Shown here in pieces: positions 9,046-38,984 of a DNA stretch of 39,022 bases. Source of the DNA: a virus; IMG/VR virus record IMGVR_UViG_3300011113_000463, positions 1-39,022 of that record, one strand, 5' to 3'. The notes under the pieces are model-generated. The model was not told where the DNA came from. It worked only from the letters and a program-made list of their open reading frames with translations, and did no database searches. The first letter of the stretch is position 1; each line of letters opens with the position of its first letter. A program made the position numbers and the translations under genes.

Positions 9046-9846
9046 ATGAAAGACAAAAATTCAGGAGCACCTATCAACCAAGAAGAAATTTCTCACTACC
9101 TTAAAGACATAAGAAAAATTAAAGTAATGACCGCTGAACGTGAGCGTGAACTTGCTTTAAGAATGAAATCAGACACCACACCACTTTCTGAACGAAGACG
9201 AATTGAACAAGAACTTATTGAAGGAAACCTTCGTTTTGTTATTACGGTGGCAAAACAATACCAAAATCAAGGGTTGGATCTATCGGACTTAATTGCTGAA
9301 GGAAATCTTGGTCTTATGAAAGCAATTAAAAACTTTGACTGGAACAAAGACCTTCGATTTATCAGTTACGCCGTATGGTGGGTGAAACAATCCATTATTC
9401 AGTCTTTAAATGACAATTCAAGAACAATTCGACTCCCGGTCAATGTTGTTCAAGATCTGCAAAAAGCAAAAAAAGATCTTGAACAAAATGGTACAAAACT
9501 TGAAGATAAGTTTGCAACACTTCCAACGACAATGGATCTTGATATGAACATTAACGAAGACGGAGATACTCTTGTTGATATGATCGAAAACAAGGACGCT
9601 CAATCGCCAGATCATATGTTTGACACCAAAGACATTCTTAAAGACAAAATGATGACTTTGCTTAATGTTTTGGATGATCGAGAAAAACTAATTATTGGTG
9701 ATTACTTTGGTCTAACCGGTACACCACGTACTTTAGAAGATATCGGATCAGACTTTGGTCTAACAAAAGAACGAGTTCGTCAGATCAAAGAAAAAGCACT
9801 TCGAAGACTACGAAATGATTCTTCAGAATTGTTCGACTATCTATAA
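9046..9846 (+). CDS. phage-encoded primary-like sigma-70 factor with reduced region 3
   Basis: A 266-residue sigma factor. A region 1.2-like stretch is at about 14-50. Region 2 (about 60-130) includes LIAEGNLGLMKAIKNFDW and YAVWWVKQSI, matching group 1/2 sigma factors. Region 4 (about 205-258) includes the helix-turn-helix LTKERVRQIKEKALRRLR. Between them region 3 is compressed: after the region 2 end there are only about 70 residues with a DTLVDMIE segment (region 3.2-like). It would redirect host core RNA polymerase, perhaps to TATTTAT promoters, by inference only. The gene is followed directly by a structured RNA and a strong terminator. Confidence 0.85.
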   Translation: MKDKNSGAPINQEEISHYLKDIRKIKVMTAERERELALRMKSDTTPLSERRRIEQELIEGNLRFVITVAKQYQNQGLDLSDLIAEGNLGLMKAIKNFDWNKDLRFISYAVWWVKQSIIQSLNDNSRTIRLPVNVVQDLQKAKKDLEQNGTKLEDKFATLPTTMDLDMNINEDGDTLVDMIENKDAQSPDHMFDTKDILKDKMMTLLNVLDDREKLIIGDYFGLTGTPRTLEDIGSDFGLTKERVRQIKEKALRRLRNDSSELFDYL

Positions 9847-29595: not shown

Positions 29596-30360
29596 ATGGC
29601 GAGAAAGAAAAAAATAGAGTTTTTAATGAACACCGATTGGATGTTTGAAAAACCTATTGATCAAGAACACAAAGAATACAAACTACTTTCTTACTTTCAG
29701 AAAATGGGAGAAAAACTTGATAGACTTGAACTATATCCAAGTTTTATTGAATTATCATTGCATTTTGCAAATGTCCAAACACTTTATAGAAATAGAAAAT
29801 TATTGTACACAACCAAAAAATTCTCATCTGTTGATGATGAACTTTTGGTTAAAGATTTAAAAATGAAAGATATTCCAGAAATGACCGAAGAAGAAGGTAG
29901 AGAATTTTCAAAAATACTTTCATATACAACACCGAGAATTTTTGAATATTTTAATGTTGCAAAGTCAGTCTGGGAACTTGTTTTTGATAGTATATCCTTA
30001 AAGGTTAGAAAAAATTTAAAAAATGTAAGTCTGAATAAAGGATTTATACTTTTTACAATTAACGATCGTGTTTATTTGTGGGAATTTGAAAAAAAACCGG
30101 CAGCAAAAAACTCAATGGAAAGTAAAATCAATACAAATCAAATATATAACGGATCAAAAAAAGAATTTAAATTGGTTGACATAATCAAAACATCAAGCAC
30201 TTTTGATGATGACACAAAATCTAAATTACCGGTGTTCGAAATGATTTGTGAGGGAGATTTTCCAATAGAAGAAACACTCCTTCCATTGTTCAAAAGAAAA
30301 GTCATAAGTTATATTAATCAAAAATCTAATAAACAAACAATAAAAGAAATTAAAGAATAG
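29596..30360 (+). CDS. hypothetical protein (254 aa)
   Basis: Begins MARKKKIEFLMNTDWMFEKP, then EHKEYKLLSYFQKMGEKLD and LELYPSFIELSLHFANVQTL. The pattern 'NTDWxxxxPIDxExKxYxLLxYxQK' looks conserved among T4-type phages as a protein of unknown role near late genes. The remainder alternates helices and strands. It leads to the methyltransferase-DUF3310 gene after 7 bases. No catalytic motif is visible. Confidence 0.55.
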   Translation: MARKKKIEFLMNTDWMFEKPIDQEHKEYKLLSYFQKMGEKLDRLELYPSFIELSLHFANVQTLYRNRKLLYTTKKFSSVDDELLVKDLKMKDIPEMTEEEGREFSKILSYTTPRIFEYFNVAKSVWELVFDSISLKVRKNLKNVSLNKGFILFTINDRVYLWEFEKKPAAKNSMESKINTNQIYNGSKKEFKLVDIIKTSSTFDDDTKSKLPVFEMICEGDFPIEETLLPLFKRKVISYINQKSNKQTIKEIKE

Positions 30361-30367
30361 AATTATT

Positions 30368-31219
30368 ATGAAATTAATAGAAGGAATGGTGGAAAACTGC
30401 GGTGAAGGAAATATTAGCTGGTATCCAGAAAGACAGGAGGTTATATATGAAATTTCCCATTTTATTAAACCCAAAAACATTATTGAAGTAGGATTTAATG
30501 CCGGACATTCAGCAAAGTTAATTTGTGATGCTATATGTCAAAAGAAAAATGAAGATGAAGAGTATTTCAAACAACCGGTTGTATTTTTAGTTTTTGATAT
30601 TTGTAAATATGAATGTACATTAACTAATTTCAATGTGATGGCGGAATATTACAAAAAGTGGAACATATTCATGAATATGATTCCGGGAGATTCCAAAGAG
30701 ACAATTCCATTAACTTTGAAAAATTATATTGAAAACTTTGATTTAATTGAAATTGATGGATGTCATTTACAACATTGTGTTGAAGAAGACTTAAAAAATC
30801 TAATTGAACGAGTGGCACCAGAAGGTTACATATATCTAGATGATTATAACTCTACTAAAGACCCAACGCCAGGAGTTGATAATGTAATAAATAATACTAA
30901 CTGGGATAATTTTGAATACAGGTTCATTGATGGATGTTTCTGGGCAAAAAGAAAACCACTTAATATTTTAACTTTAGATGATATTCTTAAACCATTCGAA
31001 CAAGTTGATCATCCATTACATTATGGTGGTGAAAATAATATTTACGAAGCAATTAAAGTTATTGATGCTTGGGATCTTAATTTTTGTCTTGGAAACGCAG
31101 TAAAGTATATTTCTAGAGCCGGAAAGAAAAACCCAGAAAAAGAAATTGAAGACTTGAACAAAGCAATTTGGTATATCCAACACCACGTTGAAAAATTGAA
31201 AAATCAAGATTCAAAATAA
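30368..31219 (+). CDS. class I SAM-methyltransferase fused to DUF3310
   Basis: A 283-residue two-domain protein. Residues 1-205 look like a small-molecule or protein methyltransferase: NIIEVGFNAGHSAKLI (37-52) is motif I, LVFDICKYECT motif II, FDLIEIDGCH motif IV and PEGYIYLDDYN motif V, as in Methyltransf_24 enzymes. Residues 213-280 (VDHPLHYGG, AIKVIDAWDLNFCLGNAVKY, KEIEDLNKAIWYIQHH) are a DUF3310 domain, a phage family linked by name only to nucleotide kinases. The fusion is unusual. Its end overlaps the converging DUF192 gene by 16 bases. Confidence 0.7.
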   Translation: MKLIEGMVENCGEGNISWYPERQEVIYEISHFIKPKNIIEVGFNAGHSAKLICDAICQKKNEDEEYFKQPVVFLVFDICKYECTLTNFNVMAEYYKKWNIFMNMIPGDSKETIPLTLKNYIENFDLIEIDGCHLQHCVEEDLKNLIERVAPEGYIYLDDYNSTKDPTPGVDNVINNTNWDNFEYRFIDGCFWAKRKPLNILTLDDILKPFEQVDHPLHYGGENNIYEAIKVIDAWDLNFCLGNAVKYISRAGKKNPEKEIEDLNKAIWYIQHHVEKLKNQDSK

Positions 31220-31560
31220 ACCGCATCACCAACTTGAATGTCGTATTGATCACAGGTTCCAGAAGGAAGTTCTAAAACTAAATCTGCGTAACCGGTAAAT
31301 CTTGGGCATTTTGATTCATCAGACTCTTTACAAACTTTACATTCTTTATGTATTTTAGAAACCTTGTCGTTTGATATAAAAATAATATCCAGATCAATAA
31401 GACAATTTTTCATCCAAAAAGATTGATCACCCGGTTTTATAAAAAATAACATACCATCAAAACCATTGAATGTTTTCTTCATCATACCATTTGATATGTC
31501 TTTGTCGGTATATACACTTTTAACTTCAAATAAGTTATTATTAATTTTAATTTGGTCCAT
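31204..31560 (-). CDS. DUF192 family protein
   Basis: A 118-residue protein with the DUF192 pattern: NGMMKKTFNGFDGMLFFI, then SFWMKNCLIDLDIIFI, and a C-terminal ADLVLELPSGTC and VGDAVYF. It has an extra cysteine cluster (CKVCKESDESKC) that may bind metal. The cellular family is usually exported, but no signal peptide is present here. Function is unknown. It is divergent from the Nudix gene. Confidence 0.75.
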   Translation of the reverse strand: MDQIKINNNLFEVKSVYTDKDISNGMMKKTFNGFDGMLFFIKPGDQSFWMKNCLIDLDIIFISNDKVSKIHKECKVCKESDESKCPRFTGYADLVLELPSGTCDQYDIQVGDAVYFES

Positions 31561-31566
31561 ATTTAT
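31560..31566 (+). promoter_or_regulatory. TATTTAT motif, candidate phage promoter
   Basis: TATTTAT, within TATTTATAAATA, lies 13 bases before the Nudix ATG at 31580. TATAAATA is also the T4 late promoter core. Confidence 0.35.
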
Positions 31567-31579
31567 AAATACTGTGTTT

Positions 31580-32005
31580 ATGAAAGAATTTAAAAGATCT
31601 TCAGGGGTAATCTATAAAGTTAAAGATGAGGTCTTACTTTGCAAAAGAGCACCAAACAAATCCATGCCAAACATTTGGTCAATACCTTCAGGAAAAATAG
31701 AAGAAAATGAATCACCAAAAGAGGCGGCAATTAGAGAATTTAAAGAAGAAACTGACATTGATTTATCAAACGAATTAGATCTGGTGAGTTTTATAAATAG
31801 ATATAAAAAAGATCAGACAACAAAAAAAGGTCTTATGTATGTTTTTTTATATGAATCTAATAAAAAAATAAATCCAGACTTGGATGTGGCTCAAGACGGG
31901 TTTGAACATACAGAATGTTCATACTTTTCATTAAAAAACTTACCAATTAAAGAAAATAATCAACAATTATCAAAAATAATTGAAAAAATTTTACAAAAAG
32001 ACTAA
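31580..32005 (+). CDS. Nudix hydrolase
   Basis: A 141-residue protein; start at ATG 31580 fits the beginning of the domain (MKEFKRSSGVIYKVKDEVLL). The Nudix box GKIEENESPKEAAIREFKEE is followed by TDI, giving GX5EX7REXXEE with T in place of the last G. Nudix enzymes cut nucleoside diphosphate derivatives such as oxidised nucleotides, ADP-ribose or NAD. The substrate cannot be told. The gene ends at a strong terminator. Confidence 0.85.
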   Translation: MKEFKRSSGVIYKVKDEVLLCKRAPNKSMPNIWSIPSGKIEENESPKEAAIREFKEETDIDLSNELDLVSFINRYKKDQTTKKGLMYVFLYESNKKINPDLDVAQDGFEHTECSYFSLKNLPIKENNQQLSKIIEKILQKD

Positions 32006-32132: not shown

Positions 32133-32139
32133 TATTTAT
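32133..32139 (+). promoter_or_regulatory. TATTTAT motif, candidate phage promoter
   Basis: TATTTAT lies exactly 6 bases before the ATG at 32146, right after a terminator, so this ATG must be served by a promoter close by. Confidence 0.45.
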
Positions 32140-32145
32140 TAGAAT

Positions 32146-33114
32146 ATGAGTCTACATAGTAAAAAAATTATCAACGAGGAAGTCAAAAGAATTAAAACTT
32201 TGATGGGAATTTTATCAGAAGATATTTTTGATTTTTTGAAAGACATTGGTTTTGAAACTGAAGATGAAGGTGAAAAAGAAGATGATAGTGAAGGTAAGAA
32301 TGATAGTAGTGTTATAAAAACAATACAAAAAATGATAGATGATAACGAGTCATTAGAAAGGCAATCAAAACCAATACCATACGATAGTAAAGTTGAAGTT
32401 TTACAAATTGCATTACAATTTCTTGGATTTTCATTACCTAAATGGGGTGTTGATGGAAAATTTGGCCCAGAAACTGAAAAGGCGGTCCAAGATTTCCAGG
32501 AAGATAATTCGATGGAAATAACAGGAATTGTAACCGGAGTTATTTTGAAAAAAATAATGGAAGAATTAATCAAAAAAGATTTTAAAGATGAGGACTTATC
32601 AGATATTGAAAAAGACAAAACAGAAACAATACCTGACGACGGAAGCACCGGAAGTAATATTGTAATAGGTGATTCTCAAACACCATATGTTGCAAATGGA
32701 AGTTCCAAGTTTGATTTAATATCAACAAAAGGATCCGAATCTTCTTTATGGTTAGGAGGTATGGGTTTAAGTTGGTTATTAAAAGCCGTTAAAAAACATC
32801 CTGGTTCTAAAAGTGTTAAAAACATTGCAATTTGTATAGGAACAAATGGTGGGTTTAATTCTAAAGATGACATATCAGGACTAGTATTAGAACTTAAAGA
32901 CAAATTTCCAAATGCCGATTTGTTTGCGATCCAGGGATCATGGGGATGGGGAGGAGTATCAAATGTTAAAGAAGACAAGGTTAGAAAATACTACAAAAGA
33001 TTCCAGGATCAAGGTGTTGAAGTAATAGAACCACCAATTGGTAAAATAGAACCTCACGGAAACAAACCAATTTATAAGACAATCGGAAAAAATCTTGACG
33101 AAAAAATAAAATAA
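32146..33114 (+). CDS. peptidoglycan-binding plus SGNH hydrolase protein, possible virion-carried enzyme
   Basis: A 322-residue protein. The N-terminus MSLHSKKIINEEVKRIKTLM continues GILSED, so INE (9-11) and LSE (23-25) are possible prohead-protease sites. Residues 80-140 are a PG_binding_1 domain (EVLQIALQFLGF, GVDGKFGPETEKAVQDFQ). After an acidic linker comes an SGNH domain with GDS (175-177), GTN (232-234) and a late histidine near 304. SGNH enzymes remove acetyl or other esters; combined with peptidoglycan binding, a cell-wall esterase is likely. The EExxRxKxLM core is shared with the C-terminus of the protein at 15236. It sits alone after a terminator. Confidence 0.65.
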   Translation: MSLHSKKIINEEVKRIKTLMGILSEDIFDFLKDIGFETEDEGEKEDDSEGKNDSSVIKTIQKMIDDNESLERQSKPIPYDSKVEVLQIALQFLGFSLPKWGVDGKFGPETEKAVQDFQEDNSMEITGIVTGVILKKIMEELIKKDFKDEDLSDIEKDKTETIPDDGSTGSNIVIGDSQTPYVANGSSKFDLISTKGSESSLWLGGMGLSWLLKAVKKHPGSKSVKNIAICIGTNGGFNSKDDISGLVLELKDKFPNADLFAIQGSWGWGGVSNVKEDKVRKYYKRFQDQGVEVIEPPIGKIEPHGNKPIYKTIGKNLDEKIK

Positions 33115-33928: not shown

Positions 33929-33955
33929 AGGGGGACTTTTAGTCCCTCTTTAATT
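33929..33955. terminator. terminator hairpin between converging lipoprotein and sigma-fusion genes
   Basis: AGGGGGACT (33929-33937) pairs with AGTCCCTCT (33941-33949, one G-U) around TTT. On the plus strand TTTAATTTTT follows. The minus-strand stop codon (33939-33941) of the sigma fusion falls in the loop. Confidence 0.75.
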
Positions 33956-34955
33956 TTTCCAAATAGTTTTTGATTTTTGCTTTTGCCTTAAACAAGTTTG
34001 ATTTTGAAGTTCCTTCTGATGTGCCAAGTTTGTTTGCAATTTCCTGATGACTCATATCGTCAAAATAATACATTCTAAATGTGTCCTGATATGCCGGTGA
34101 TAAAGTTGACATTGCATCTTGAATATCCTTTTCAGAATATCTTCCCATAAATAAATCATCATATTCTTCTTCTCCAGTATCAAGTCTTCCAAAATCATAC
34201 GAAGACCCTCTTGGTCTAATCTTTTCTTTTCTTAATTCATCCAAAATGTTGTTTCTAACAATAGTTGAGATCCAACCCGCCAAACTTTCGCCTCGATACA
34301 TATCTCTTTTCTGATACGCTTTCATAAATCCATTTTGACAAAAGTCTTGTGCTCTTTCTCTATCATTATTTGCATACTTCATACAAATAGATCTAAAAAC
34401 CTTTGGATATAATTCTGTGTATGCCGATGAAAAATCAAAATTTTCTTTAAGTCTTCTTTTTTTATTGGTTTCTGTTATTGATTTAACACCAGATTCTACT
34501 TTAAATTTCAAAATCAAAGATCTCATGGCTGATGCAAAATTTTTGACTATCGGAATTTTAGATAAAATTAGTTTATCAACAAGATCTAACGCTTTACCAA
34601 CCCATTTACCAGCAAACCTAAATAAAACGCCAAGAACTTTCATATTCGAAATACCAGCAATAATTTTACCACCAATCATCAAAGGTTTTGTGATTAAATC
34701 AGTTCCAGGAATTGCGGAAATCAAACTTAAAAGTGCAAAAACTTTTTTACCTTGTGAAAAAAATGAAATTGCATTCGCTATATCGGCAATACCCGTAGGG
34801 TCAAAAATACCTACAATTCCAAGAAGAGCATTAAACCAACTTTCTGTTAAAGGTTCTAATTTTTTTCCTGCATAACTTTCAATAATCATATTCATACCTT
34901 CAGTATTTAATGACATCAAAGTTTTGTATTGAGATTCAGAAATTACAATTTTCAT
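33939..34955 (-). CDS. ECF-type sigma factor fused to targeting peptide and hydrophobic domain
   Basis: A 338-residue protein in three parts. (1) MKIVISESQYKTLMSLNTEG: ISE at 5-7, also found in the adjacent HExxH gene. (2) Residues 40-150 are hydrophobic and glycine-rich: LLGIVGIFDPTGIADIANAI, FALLSLISAIPGTDLITKPL, similar in texture to the pre-toxin channel-like segments of polymorphic toxins. (3) Residues 175-335 are an ECF sigma factor: region 2 (YTELYPKVFRSICMKYANND, FCQNGFMKAYQK, WISTIVRNNILDELRKEK) and region 4 (LSPAYQDTFRMYYFDDMSHQ, EIANKLGTSEGTSKSNLFKA). Sites ITE (160-162) and LKE (169-171) sit just before the sigma part. Interpretation as a packaged, cleaved sigma factor is inference. 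Confidence 0.75.
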   Translation of the reverse strand: MKIVISESQYKTLMSLNTEGMNMIIESYAGKKLEPLTESWFNALLGIVGIFDPTGIADIANAISFFSQGKKVFALLSLISAIPGTDLITKPLMIGGKIIAGISNMKVLGVLFRFAGKWVGKALDLVDKLILSKIPIVKNFASAMRSLILKFKVESGVKSITETNKKRRLKENFDFSSAYTELYPKVFRSICMKYANNDRERAQDFCQNGFMKAYQKRDMYRGESLAGWISTIVRNNILDELRKEKIRPRGSSYDFGRLDTGEEEYDDLFMGRYSEKDIQDAMSTLSPAYQDTFRMYYFDDMSHQEIANKLGTSEGTSKSNLFKAKAKIKNYLEKLKRD

Positions 34956-34970
34956 ATATTTTATATTTTA

Positions 34971-34977
34971 ATAAATA
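34971..34977 (-). promoter_or_regulatory. TATTTAT motif on the minus strand, candidate phage promoter
   Basis: TATTTAT on the minus strand, 15 bases before the ATG at 34955. Paired with an opposite-strand copy at 35028-35034 in the same 85-base divergent gap. Confidence 0.4.
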
Positions 34978-35027: not shown

Positions 35028-35034
35028 TATTTAT
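35028..35034 (+). promoter_or_regulatory. TATTTAT motif, candidate phage promoter
   Basis: TATTTAT lies exactly 6 bases before the ATG at 35041, in the divergent gap with the sigma-fusion gene. Confidence 0.45.
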
Positions 35035-35040
35035 TCTTAT

Positions 35041-36291
35041 ATGAAAATTATTATAACCGAGTCACAAGCACAATTACTCAAAGAAGCACTTGGAGTTCCA
35101 AACGACATTTTGGAAGGTGCTGAAAAACTATATCAAACAATTATTGATCACATAAGAACTATAGATCATAAAAGTAATGAATATAATTTTGATGGTAATT
35201 TGGATATTGAATTTGGTGGTAAAAAAAAGGTTCACGTAGATAACTATGAACTCACAATTAATACTGAAGAAATTGATGATTACGAAGGATCTGCGGATGT
35301 CATGTCTATGGGAGTTCAAACTTCGTTTATGTTTGATAGAAACATTCTTATGCAAAGAAGAGAAATTACAAGTGAATTAATCTTACATGTGACATTTGTT
35401 GTAGGACCAAACTGGGAACCTAAAGAGTTGATTGAAAAAATGGAATCAGATAAAGTTTATCAAACCGCATCTTTGGCTCACGAATTAAAACACAAGTATG
35501 ATAAACAAGTTAAAGAAATTGATTTAGTTGGTCCGTCAGCAGAATATCAAGCAACTCAACAAGTTAGTAAATTTGGTATTCCGGCAATTGATCATAAATT
35601 TTATAGATATGCTTATTTTATATCTATGAGTGAAAATTTGGTAAGAACAACTGAAGTTGCGTCTCAAATGAAATCTTTGGGCGTTACAAAAAAAGGATTT
35701 GAGGAGTTTATAAAAAACGAAAGAGTTTATAAAGAATTATTACAAATTAAAAACTATACATTTGAAAAATTCATTTCAGAAATAAAAGAAAGAATGGAAA
35801 GGGTGGACGCACTTTTGGATCATGTTGGTATTGATTATTCAGATATGACCGATGATGAAAAAATTGAAACGGTGTTAGAGATTGTATATCAAGATAGTGT
35901 GAATCATAAAATGAATATTTTTATGCAAATGACATCAGAAAATTCTGACATGTTAATTGATATGGCAAGTGCATTTGGTGCTATACCACCAATTTTAAAA
36001 ACAAAAGCAAAACAACTAGAAAAAACTAATGAGGTAAGACAAAAGTTTTTAAATTACGCAATTAAATATATAAACAACCCAGTTAAGTTTTTTGAAGATG
36101 AGATTGAAAATTTTAGTTATCTGGCAAACAAATTCTTAAAAAGAGTTATAAAACTTTACGCAATGGCTAAAGACGATGAAACACAAATAAACGAATCGAT
36201 TCAAAACTGGGACTTACATCAAAAATTAATGGAAAAAAAATATGGTAAAAGAAAAATTTCAACAACTTATAACTTTAAAAAAATTAAATAA
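35041..36291 (+). CDS. HExxH putative metalloprotease with head-targeting-like N-terminus
   Basis: The start at 35041 is chosen because it gives MKIIITESQAQLLKEALG, almost the same as the beginning of the sigma fusion (MKIVISESQYKTL). ITE is at 5-7. The motif AHELKH (146-151) is a HExxH zinc-binding site in a helix; a later glutamate (TTEVASQM) could be the third ligand. The C-terminal half is helical and acidic. Proteins of this kind may be zinc peptidases delivered with the DNA; no substrate is known. The 3' end overlaps the RlpA-like gene by 50 bases. Confidence 0.55.
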   Translation: MKIIITESQAQLLKEALGVPNDILEGAEKLYQTIIDHIRTIDHKSNEYNFDGNLDIEFGGKKKVHVDNYELTINTEEIDDYEGSADVMSMGVQTSFMFDRNILMQRREITSELILHVTFVVGPNWEPKELIEKMESDKVYQTASLAHELKHKYDKQVKEIDLVGPSAEYQATQQVSKFGIPAIDHKFYRYAYFISMSENLVRTTEVASQMKSLGVTKKGFEEFIKNERVYKELLQIKNYTFEKFISEIKERMERVDALLDHVGIDYSDMTDDEKIETVLEIVYQDSVNHKMNIFMQMTSENSDMLIDMASAFGAIPPILKTKAKQLEKTNEVRQKFLNYAIKYINNPVKFFEDEIENFSYLANKFLKRVIKLYAMAKDDETQINESIQNWDLHQKLMEKKYGKRKISTTYNFKKIK

Positions 36292-36824: not shown

Positions 36825-38984
36825 ATGAAGAATTTACTATTATCAATTTTTGTTTTTTTTACAAGTTTTGTCATTTCACAATCTTGTACCCACACAATAA
36901 GATTAACAGATACTTTTGGTGATGGTTGGAATGGAGGTGCGGTTTCTGTATCTGTAAATGGAGTTGTTGTGTTATCTAATATAACATTTTCCACAGGACT
37001 TGGGCCCGTCAATTTTAACTTTACAGCAACATCAGGACAAACAATTAGAGTTTGGAGAACTTTAAGTGGTACATATCCTTCTGAAATGAGAGTTCAAATA
37101 GTCAATAATGTGGGAACTATTCTTTTAGCCACCATACAACCAACAACAGGAACCGCAACAACAGGTGGTTATACTTGTGTTGCTAGTTGTTCAGGAGGAG
37201 GAGGAGGTGGATGTTTTAATACATCTCCGTATGTGACTGTGGCGGCGCCAACTTCGCCAGGAGTCTTAACTATAAGTTCTTGTACTTATCAATCTGAATA
37301 TAATACAATTACAAGTGTAACTGCGGGAAATCAATACAGATCAACATATAATTTGGGAGGTTGGATTACTGTAAGACATACAACACCAAATGGAACTGTT
37401 GTTGCTTCAGGCACATCCCCACTAACATGGACGGCAACAATTTCGGGAACATATTACATACATTATAATACGAACTCTCTATGTGGAACCGCATCATCTT
37501 GTGGGACAACTACAATCGAGTGTTTAAGTTGTGTTGCACCACCGGCTCCTGCGAATGATTTAGTTTGTAACGCCACACCAATTGTCTGTGGTCAGATGAT
37601 ATCGGGAACCACAGTAAATGCAACTAACAGTGGAACGGGAGAAAATGGTATTTGTAGTGTTTCACAAACAATGCCAGGTGTTTGGTATAGAGTTACAGGT
37701 AATGGTCAAATAATGACCGCTCATTTATGTAATACCGTCTGGGATAGTAAAATATCTGTTTTTAGTGGAACAAGTTGTTCGGCATTAACTTGTGTAGGTG
37801 GGAATGATGATAACGGACCATTGTGTGTTGGAACTTCGGCATCATATCAATGGACATCGGTTGTTGGACTTAACTACTATATTCTTGTTCATGGTTTTAG
37901 TGTCAATAACTCGTTTCAATTAGGACTAACATGCACAACACCACCCCCACCCGATCCTACATCAATTACGGCAACATCAAATACTATATGTTCAGGTCAA
38001 TCAGTAACATTAACGGCAAACGGAGCAAGTGGAACCGTTTATTGGTTTACTGGAGGATGTGGTGTTGGTCAAATAGCAACAGGAAACTCAATAAGTGTAA
38101 CCCCATCGACAACCACAACATATTACGCAAGAAACTTTAATGGAGTTCAGTTTAGTAACAACTGTGTGTCCACAACCGTAACGGTGAATAACAATCCGGT
38201 CGTATCAACTTCCGCAAGTTTAAGCACAATTTGTCAGGGTTCATCAACACAACTAAATTCATCTGTTACGGGAGTGTCATCTCCAGGTTCTCTTTCAGTT
38301 ACAATAACAGGGGGATTATTAGATGAAACAAGTTGGACTCTAACAAATAATCTTGGAGTAATAATTGGTTCAGGAGGTCCTTATTTCACATCACCTAACG
38401 TCACAAATATTGGGTCTTCTGCTAATGGTCCTTATGTTTTTTATATTGAAACTATGGGAAGCTGGAATGATAATGTTCCAACCTTTACTATAACTTGTAA
38501 TGGGTCTACAATACTTACAGGATCAATTGGAGGGGGTTCACAAAATAACTATTGGGTGTCAAGTTGCACAACAGCTCCAGTTGTAAATTATATTTGGTCA
38601 CCATCAACAGGGTTGTCAAACCCAAATATACAAAATCCAATAGCAAACCCATCAACTACAACAACCTACACCGTTACCGCAACTTCTAATGGTTGTAGTG
38701 GAACTTCAAGTAGAACTATAACCGTAAATCCATTACCGACTGTAAGTGCAGGGTCTAATCAAACTGTTTGTTCAGGAACTCAAGTAACACTAAATGGTTC
38801 TGGAGCTTCAACATACTCTTGGAATAACAGTGTTACTAATGGAGTAGCTTTTACACCAACATCAACGCAAACCTATACGGTTACAGGCACAAACGCAAAT
38901 GGATGTTCTAATACCTCAAGCACTACCGTAACTGTTTTATCCAATCCTTTGGCAAACGCAGGAGGACCTAATAATGCAGTATAA
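36825..38984 (+). CDS. secreted Bacteroidetes-type adhesin with Ig-like repeats, interrupted by TAA
   Basis: A signal peptide (MKNLLLSIFVFFTSFVISQ) is followed by a LTDTFGDGWNGGAVSVSVNG domain, two cysteine-rich domains, and a NDLVCNATPIVCG...VWYRVTGNGQ...GNDDNGPLC region typical of secreted Bacteroidetes proteins. Then repeats built on 'NxTICSGQSVTLTANGA...TTTYxVTATxxGCSGTSS', as in SprB-like cell-surface proteins. The TAA at 38982-38984 ends the frame, but the same frame continues TCGINQVTLAAN to the window edge, in step with the repeat (compare NQTVCSGTQVTLNGS). It may be a receptor-binding or host-derived protein. Thr/Ser-rich and less AT-rich than the rest. Confidence 0.65.
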   Translation: MKNLLLSIFVFFTSFVISQSCTHTIRLTDTFGDGWNGGAVSVSVNGVVVLSNITFSTGLGPVNFNFTATSGQTIRVWRTLSGTYPSEMRVQIVNNVGTILLATIQPTTGTATTGGYTCVASCSGGGGGGCFNTSPYVTVAAPTSPGVLTISSCTYQSEYNTITSVTAGNQYRSTYNLGGWITVRHTTPNGTVVASGTSPLTWTATISGTYYIHYNTNSLCGTASSCGTTTIECLSCVAPPAPANDLVCNATPIVCGQMISGTTVNATNSGTGENGICSVSQTMPGVWYRVTGNGQIMTAHLCNTVWDSKISVFSGTSCSALTCVGGNDDNGPLCVGTSASYQWTSVVGLNYYILVHGFSVNNSFQLGLTCTTPPPPDPTSITATSNTICSGQSVTLTANGASGTVYWFTGGCGVGQIATGNSISVTPSTTTTYYARNFNGVQFSNNCVSTTVTVNNNPVVSTSASLSTICQGSSTQLNSSVTGVSSPGSLSVTITGGLLDETSWTLTNNLGVIIGSGGPYFTSPNVTNIGSSANGPYVFYIETMGSWNDNVPTFTITCNGSTILTGSIGGGSQNNYWVSSCTTAPVVNYIWSPSTGLSNPNIQNPIANPSTTTTYTVTATSNGCSGTSSRTITVNPLPTVSAGSNQTVCSGTQVTLNGSGASTYSWNNSVTNGVAFTPTSTQTYTVTGTNANGCSNTSSTTVTVLSNPLANAGGPNNAV

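Follow-up and report, generated by a model that had tools for sequence, protein, structure and literature searches.

A predicted head-delivered polyprotein joining a hydrophobic module to an ECF sigma factor in a large T4-type virus of Bacteroidota

We analyzed a 39,022-base virus fragment from IMG/VR (record IMGVR_UViG_3300011113_000463, positions 1 to 39,022), here called the window, in which one gene joins a head-targeting-like N-terminal peptide, a glycine-rich module, and an ECF sigma factor. The locus raises the question of when a sigma factor of this design would act: after being made in the infected cell, or from the first moment of infection, as cargo of the phage head. The fragment comes from a large T4-type virus of Bacteroidota. 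Of its 51 proteins, 42 are shared with the related contig G001 and likewise with G008 (about 65% identity), and 33 with G013 (about 51% identity); G013 lacks this sigma factor, as do most relatives. The group resembles aquatic jumbo phages of Bacteroidota that were reported in 2025 (PMC12619734). Jumbo phages of the T4 type as a rule encode sigma factors but no polymerase (PMC7824862), so borrowing the host polymerase is the expected strategy. Features of the locus are collected in Table 1; gene starts throughout are first-ATG guesses.

Table 1. Features of the fusion gene and its tagged neighbors in the window
Feature	Positions	Strand	Basis
Fusion gene: tag, hydrophobic module, and ECF sigma factor; 338 aa, ATG start	33939..34955	-	ORF list, Pfam, NCBIfam
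Head-targeting-like N-terminal peptide MKIVISE, residues 1-7, presumed cut after E7	34935..34955	-	Comparison with relatives and T4
L-T-E site, residues 36-38, before the hydrophobic module, conserved	34842..34850	-	P1 E in 29/29 distinct 370-aa relatives
Glycine-rich, moderately hydrophobic, all-helical module, residues 39-162	34470..34841	-	Homology to 370-aa phage family
Join site I-T-E, residues 160-162	34470..34478	-	Six-fusion comparison
Join site L-K-E, residues 169-171, just upstream of sigma region 2	34443..34451	-	Join comparison
Sigma region 2, residues 180-245	34221..34418	-	Pfam PF04542, 3.6e-12
Sigma region 4, residues 277-328	33972..34127	-	Pfam PF08281, 7.9e-15
TATTTAT, presumed late-promoter element, starting 22 nt before the fusion ATG	34971..34977	-	Upstream motif analysis
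HExxH (HELKH) protein, tag MKIIITE, TATTTAT at -13, predicted co-packaged	35041..36291	+	ORF list, motif analysis
Peptidoglycan-binding-domain protein, tag type IINEE, TATTTAT at -13, predicted co-packaged	32146..33114	+	Domain search, motif analysis

The HExxH gene is divergent from the fusion gene, and its product, which belongs to no assigned family, is a possible injected metalloprotease. The peptidoglycan-binding-domain protein has a second, unassigned domain after the first and is a possible injected or tail-delivered cell-wall factor. At 36825-38984, the window also encodes a protein of 719 aa that has Ig-like domains of the Bacteroidota CHU_C type behind a signal-like N-terminus and is unusual for a phage.

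The sigma factor, its N-terminal peptide, and its promoter

Residues 174 to 336 of the fusion are an ECF sigma factor, matching the NCBIfam ECF superfamily at 1.4e-27 and solved ECF sigma structures in a profile search at 2.5e-14. Regions 2 and 4 are present, with neither region 3 nor region 1.1, which is the arrangement of ECF (group IV) factors. The initial annotation had called both regions complete and had noted an ISE at residues 5 to 7, within a peptide shared with the HExxH neighbor; the Pfam matches (Table 1) and the comparison of the two N-termini (MKIVISE and MKIIITESQ) agree with it on both points. We considered a T4 gp55-type late sigma factor and rejected this identity, given that T4 gp55 gave no phmmer match at 1e-3 to the fusion or to any ORF and that a complete region 4 is present instead. 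A cellular source of this exact sigma factor was also set aside, as the nearest genome matches are Bacteroidota contigs merely 21 to 29% identical.

The N-terminal peptide has the form of a T4-type internal-protein propeptide, that is, about 7 to 20 residues ending in L/I-x-E. The same layout is found in the packaged proteins of the T4 record (MKTYQEFIAE in ipII/ipIII, MELITE in alt). In T4, the gp21 protease cleaves after L/I-X-E, targeting needs no more of IPIII than its first 10 residues, and fusions to targeting peptides get packaged and delivered (PMC9026906). Such tags appear to be a genome-wide feature of the relatives. The pattern [LI]xE lies within residues 3 to 13 in 23% of the proteins of G013 (352 ORFs) and 30% of those of G003 (207 ORFs), compared to 10 to 14% at other positions in the same two contigs; the excess is weak or nil in the smaller fusion-bearing contigs because they mainly cover the DNA-metabolism region. 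The tags are of several sequence types (MKIIITESQ, MKKVIRLTESDL, MNLQENIRRILREE, MKKLIKESG) and are carried by dozens of unrelated genes.

The best-surviving alternative to head delivery is an ordinary phage sigma factor on the model of phiEco32 gp36, active inside the infected cell during the middle or late phase, its peptide being a shared leader that affects stability or translation start and its fusion a neutral accident. Phage ECF sigma factors that work in the cell are known (SU10/phiEco32, PMC4281155), forms with the sigma factor and no module exist, and packaging of the fusion is itself predicted from sequence. Against this reading, the same peptide types recur on genes that have nothing to do with sigma factors, and the promoters and joins described below also count against it.

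The motif TATTTAT is the dominant upstream element of G003 and G013, and read in reverse complement it gives the core of the T4 TATAAATA late motif. It is enriched 9- to 14-fold within 60 nt upstream of genes and precedes eight of ten T4-late homologues (gp13, gp17 twice, gp18, gp21 twice, gp23, and gp25) and one of five early-gene homologues, making it an apparent late promoter. Tagged genes carry it more often than others do, both in G003 (19/32 versus 39/175, p 5.9e-5) and in G013 (29/50 versus 69/302, p 1.6e-6). In the window, copies lie before the fusion gene, at 35028-35034, and at 32133-32139, and the motif stands upstream of nearly every complete sigma-encoding relative. An exception is L306:3935-4489, a sigma relative on the 210-kb contig G025, whose tag, MEKLIKKILKEE, is of another type and which, within 60 nt of its assumed start, lacks TATTTAT; this relative counts against the head-delivery reading.

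TATTTAT was also considered as the ECF sigma factor's own target, but G013, which has no such sigma factor, shows equal enrichment, and the idea was rejected on that ground. A k-mer search of upstream regions found no promoter motif specific to the ECF sigma factor, yielding only TATTTAT, the host-type TTG-N17-21-TAnnTTTG, and terminator-like strings. The enrichment of host-type promoters fits a Bacteroidota host. With such promoters available, early genes may not need the ECF sigma factor, which weighs against the head-delivery reading.

The window encodes a second sigma factor, of RpoD type (9046-9846), that is 83% identical in G001 and 76% identical in G013. It has neither a tag nor TATTTAT; by these features, the RpoD-type protein resembles a factor that acts in the cell and the ECF sigma factor a packaged one, a contrast that argues against an ordinary in-cell role for the latter.

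Join sites, carriers, and the hydrophobic module

L/I-x-E triplets in the 338-aa fusion begin at residues 5, 24 (IIE, residues 24 to 26), 36, 160, and 169, and the sigma part holds a single internal one, LDE at 238. The sites at 160-162 (ITE) and 169-171 (LKE) had already been placed at the join to the sigma part, and comparison with other fusions bears this out: in each of the six module fusions compared, the region 2 anchor is preceded by sites at offsets -11 and -2, with L and I interchanging and the middle residue varying. Of 15 distinct sigma relatives, 14 have [LI]xE no more than 12 residues ahead of region 2. L/I-x-E is a short motif, and the background for this test was 12% of 12,743 windows from the same genomes; shuffles gave a mean of 3.8, and 0 of 20,000 reached the observed 14, a comparison in which the 15 relatives are homologous rather than independent, the separate origins of joins numbering about five or six. 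The one exception, L171, has LKES slightly farther upstream. Every complete sigma relative has a short N-terminus containing L/I-x-E, and non-tagged phage ECF sigma factors (crAss-like phages, Gilgamesh) have no [LI]xE near the N-terminus. The tag and the join sites persist in every relative, E never changing and P2 varying freely, which is a further point against a shared leader and an accidental fusion.

All three parts occur together in L001, L009, L011 (near copies L012-L014), L015 (L016, L017), and L043/L044, so that the full fusion is found again in several divergent lineages. Because of this recurrence and the offsets kept in six fusions, the arrangement is more than chance. The initial annotation had proposed a homologue search to see whether the three parts travel together. 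They recur as a unit, but they do not form an obligate three-part protein, as the halves also occur as separate genes. Tag and sigma factor are found without the module in L002/L003/L006, L004/L005/L007, L170, L171/L172, L283-L285, L286, and others; L006 is syntenic with L001, and the module is exactly what its gene is missing. At the same locus, L010 keeps tag and module and has lost the sigma factor, its C-terminus reading MKLNK before the stop. The three parts are therefore separable, and because each half retains the targeting peptide, their separate occurrence is no argument against packaging. The L001 join (KDSEMKLNESKLYKILTENVDFDK) resembles the start of a free-standing tagged sigma factor, which suggests that the fusion probably arose from the joining of two tagged genes.

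The same sigma factor also forms the C-terminus of a tagged DHH-family protein (L173-L175, L303-L305), with ITE, INE, or LKE at the join; it thus has two tagged carriers that are unrelated to each other, this DHH protein and the hydrophobic module. The DHH family comprises at least 556 loci. Its N-terminus, MKKLI-x-ESG, has E in 46/46 sequences and S in 44/46, I or L before, and a free x (K, T, N, S, V), which is what an L/I-x-E protease site would look like. Elsewhere, the C-terminal cargo of the DHH protein is a SET domain in L249:4001-6073 (Pfam 1.6e-9), a TseH-like type VI effector in L261/L262 (Pfam 2.9e-6), or, in G003 (L142:17392-19899), an unassigned domain, and the joins to these cargos (NNITE, EITE, TITES) each contain I-T-E. 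Since this carrier bears effector domains elsewhere, the sigma factor occupies an effector slot, which counts against an ordinary in-cell factor. With these observations added to those on tags and promoters, we regard the ordinary in-cell reading as unlikely. An ADP-ribosyltransferase behind the G003 DHH protein (residues about 540-690, LFRIIKADD ... NENEVTL, compare T4 Alt) was seen by eye only; no profile confirmed it, and we do not retain this assignment.

A search with the core of the hydrophobic module found at least 138 loci. Its usual owner is a phage protein of about 370 aa with a tag at the start (LTESEL and similar; for example, L106:3345-4466), and by homology the module is borrowed from this widespread protein. 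In the 370-aa family, a second site stands directly before the module (LIKES-KWYNTLGDIVGIFDPTG), with E in 29 of 29 distinct sequences, I, L, or V always at P3, and a free middle residue. The fusion has an equivalent site, LTE at 36-38 followed by SWFNALLGIVGIFDPTG, which, like the IIE at 24 to 26, was overlooked in the initial annotation; its position, directly N-terminal to the hydrophobic domain, is conserved. In G013, the 370-aa gene sits among homologues of window genes 29596-32005, the neighborhood of the fusion. With sites on both flanks, the module is predicted to be cut away from the sigma factor.

The stretch described earlier as glycine-rich, hydrophobic, and pre-toxin-like, a helical domain at residues about 39 to 155, is indeed glycine-rich, but it is only moderately hydrophobic. 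Its best 19-residue Kyte-Doolittle mean is 1.42 (1.11 in L001, 1.1 to 1.6 across the fusions), and none of the fusions compared on this scale has a clear transmembrane segment in the module. The pre-toxin label found no support: neither the module nor the 370-aa family has a PHROG match or a credible Pfam match, and up to E 5 neither of them hit any pre-toxin model of Pfam. No relatives of the 370-aa family were found among 50,697 GenBank phage records, and Foldseek with its predicted structure gave no match in the PDB (best E 2.7). On these grounds, we rejected the module as a pre-toxin or pore-former. Structure prediction, also suggested at the outset, did not identify the module; AlphaFold gave a mean pLDDT of 55.6 (low) for the fusion and 68.0 (moderate) for the 370-aa protein.

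These properties bear on the earlier proposal that the hydrophobic domain takes the injected sigma factor across the host inner membrane. The module is glycine-rich and hydrophobic, and it accompanies the sigma factor in several lineages. However, the sigma factor occurs without it at the same locus (L002, L003, L006), the module occurs without the sigma factor (L010), a clear transmembrane segment is lacking, and the predicted cutting sites would release the module on both sides. T4 internal proteins, moreover, lack such a domain and are still delivered through the tail (PMC9026906). We consider membrane passage by means of the module very improbable.

Proposed delivery route and known systems

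Delivery from the head would depend on a T4-type prohead protease and capsid. No protease or capsid gene lies within the 39-kb window fragment, and both are attributed to the virus from its relatives. Three contigs, G003 (154 kb), G006 (95 kb), and G025 (210 kb), each encode an S77 (gp21-type) prohead protease together with a sigma relative. The four contigs of 317 to 322 kb with the 370-aa family also encode the protease, and it is present in G013. The major head protein homologue gp23 is present in G003 and G006 and, by phmmer, in G013; the gp23 homologues have SHLINE/ATS at the site of T4 SFLTE/AEI. Together with the tags, the joins, the late-type promoter, and the swapping of effectors, this protease gives good comparative support to the earlier prediction of head targeting and cleavage.

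From these comparisons, we infer a route that begins with late expression of the fusion. The N-terminal targeting peptide would draw the protein into the prohead core, where a gp21-type protease would remove the propeptide by cutting after E7 or E38 and would part the ECF sigma factor from the hydrophobic module by cutting after E162 and/or E171. The freed sigma factor (about residues 172-338) would remain in the head beside the DNA, be injected with it, and bind host core RNA polymerase ahead of any phage gene expression; such early capture of the host enzyme is plausible. The module would be a separate cargo rather than a translocation domain of the sigma factor. We judge it likely, by a clear but not commanding measure, that the fusion is a cleavable polyprotein delivered from the head, with the sigma factor as its second cargo. 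A last alternative, in which the sigma fold was taken over for holding or organizing packaged DNA rather than for starting transcription, draws on the abundance of T4 internal proteins mixed with DNA (PMC9958956, PMC3012670) and on DNA binding by sigma factors, but the DNA-contacting and polymerase-contacting regions are both complete, as in working ECF sigma factors, and the sigma factor is absent from most relatives and so is not a core head component, which leaves this reading the least credible of all.

The head-delivery reading can be extended to the group as a whole. Widespread uncultured T4-type phages of Bacteroidota may deliver effectors as head polyproteins, in which tagged DHH or 370-aa helical carriers bear swappable second cargos joined through gp21-type sites, one such cargo being an ECF sigma factor that would reprogram host RNA polymerase from the first moment; we hold the case for and against this wider proposal to be evenly balanced. 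If an injected sigma factor is real, it would be a third route to control of transcription before gene expression, beside injected polymerases and polymerase modifiers such as T4 Alt. The carrier-cargo joins predict exact cut positions, and the combination of tag and late promoter could be used to catalog candidate injected effectors, in the hundreds, from phages without a cultured representative in the searched collections.

In the open-licence literature, we found no clear case of a head-packaged or injected sigma factor, in keeping with the initial annotation, which knew of no described injected ECF sigma factor. The closest finding is one ECF sigma peptide from a particle preparation of SU10, in which replication enzymes were also present (PMC4281155); this looks like carry-over. 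The ECF sigma factors of phiEco32 (gp36) and SU10 are, like the present one, phage-encoded and use host RNA polymerase, but they are made in the infected cell, and no head tag or cleavage sites have been reported for them.

The closest parallel is with the T4 internal proteins IPI, IPII, and IPIII and with Alt. Both systems have a short N-terminal peptide ending in L/I-x-E, a late-type promoter (presumed for the fusion), and an S77 prohead protease with gp23 (here in relatives of the window), and in both the cargo is aimed, or would be aimed, at host defense or, as with Alt, at host RNA polymerase. In contrast to T4, the cargo here is a complete ECF sigma factor, two cargos share a chain with internal L/I-x-E joins, and the tags are far more numerous and of several sequence types. 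The virion RNA polymerases of N4 and of phiKZ-type phages (vRNAP) are similar in that phage transcription would begin immediately with the help of a component carried in the virion; here, the specificity factor alone is proposed to be injected, without any polymerase subunit, and the host core polymerase would do the work. Finally, the polyvalent proteins of phages and conjugative elements, as cited in PMC7824862, are likewise multi-domain proteins with effector parts that are injected with phage DNA, whereas the fusion described here has two domains and a T4-type head tag and is apparently meant to be separated by the head protease.
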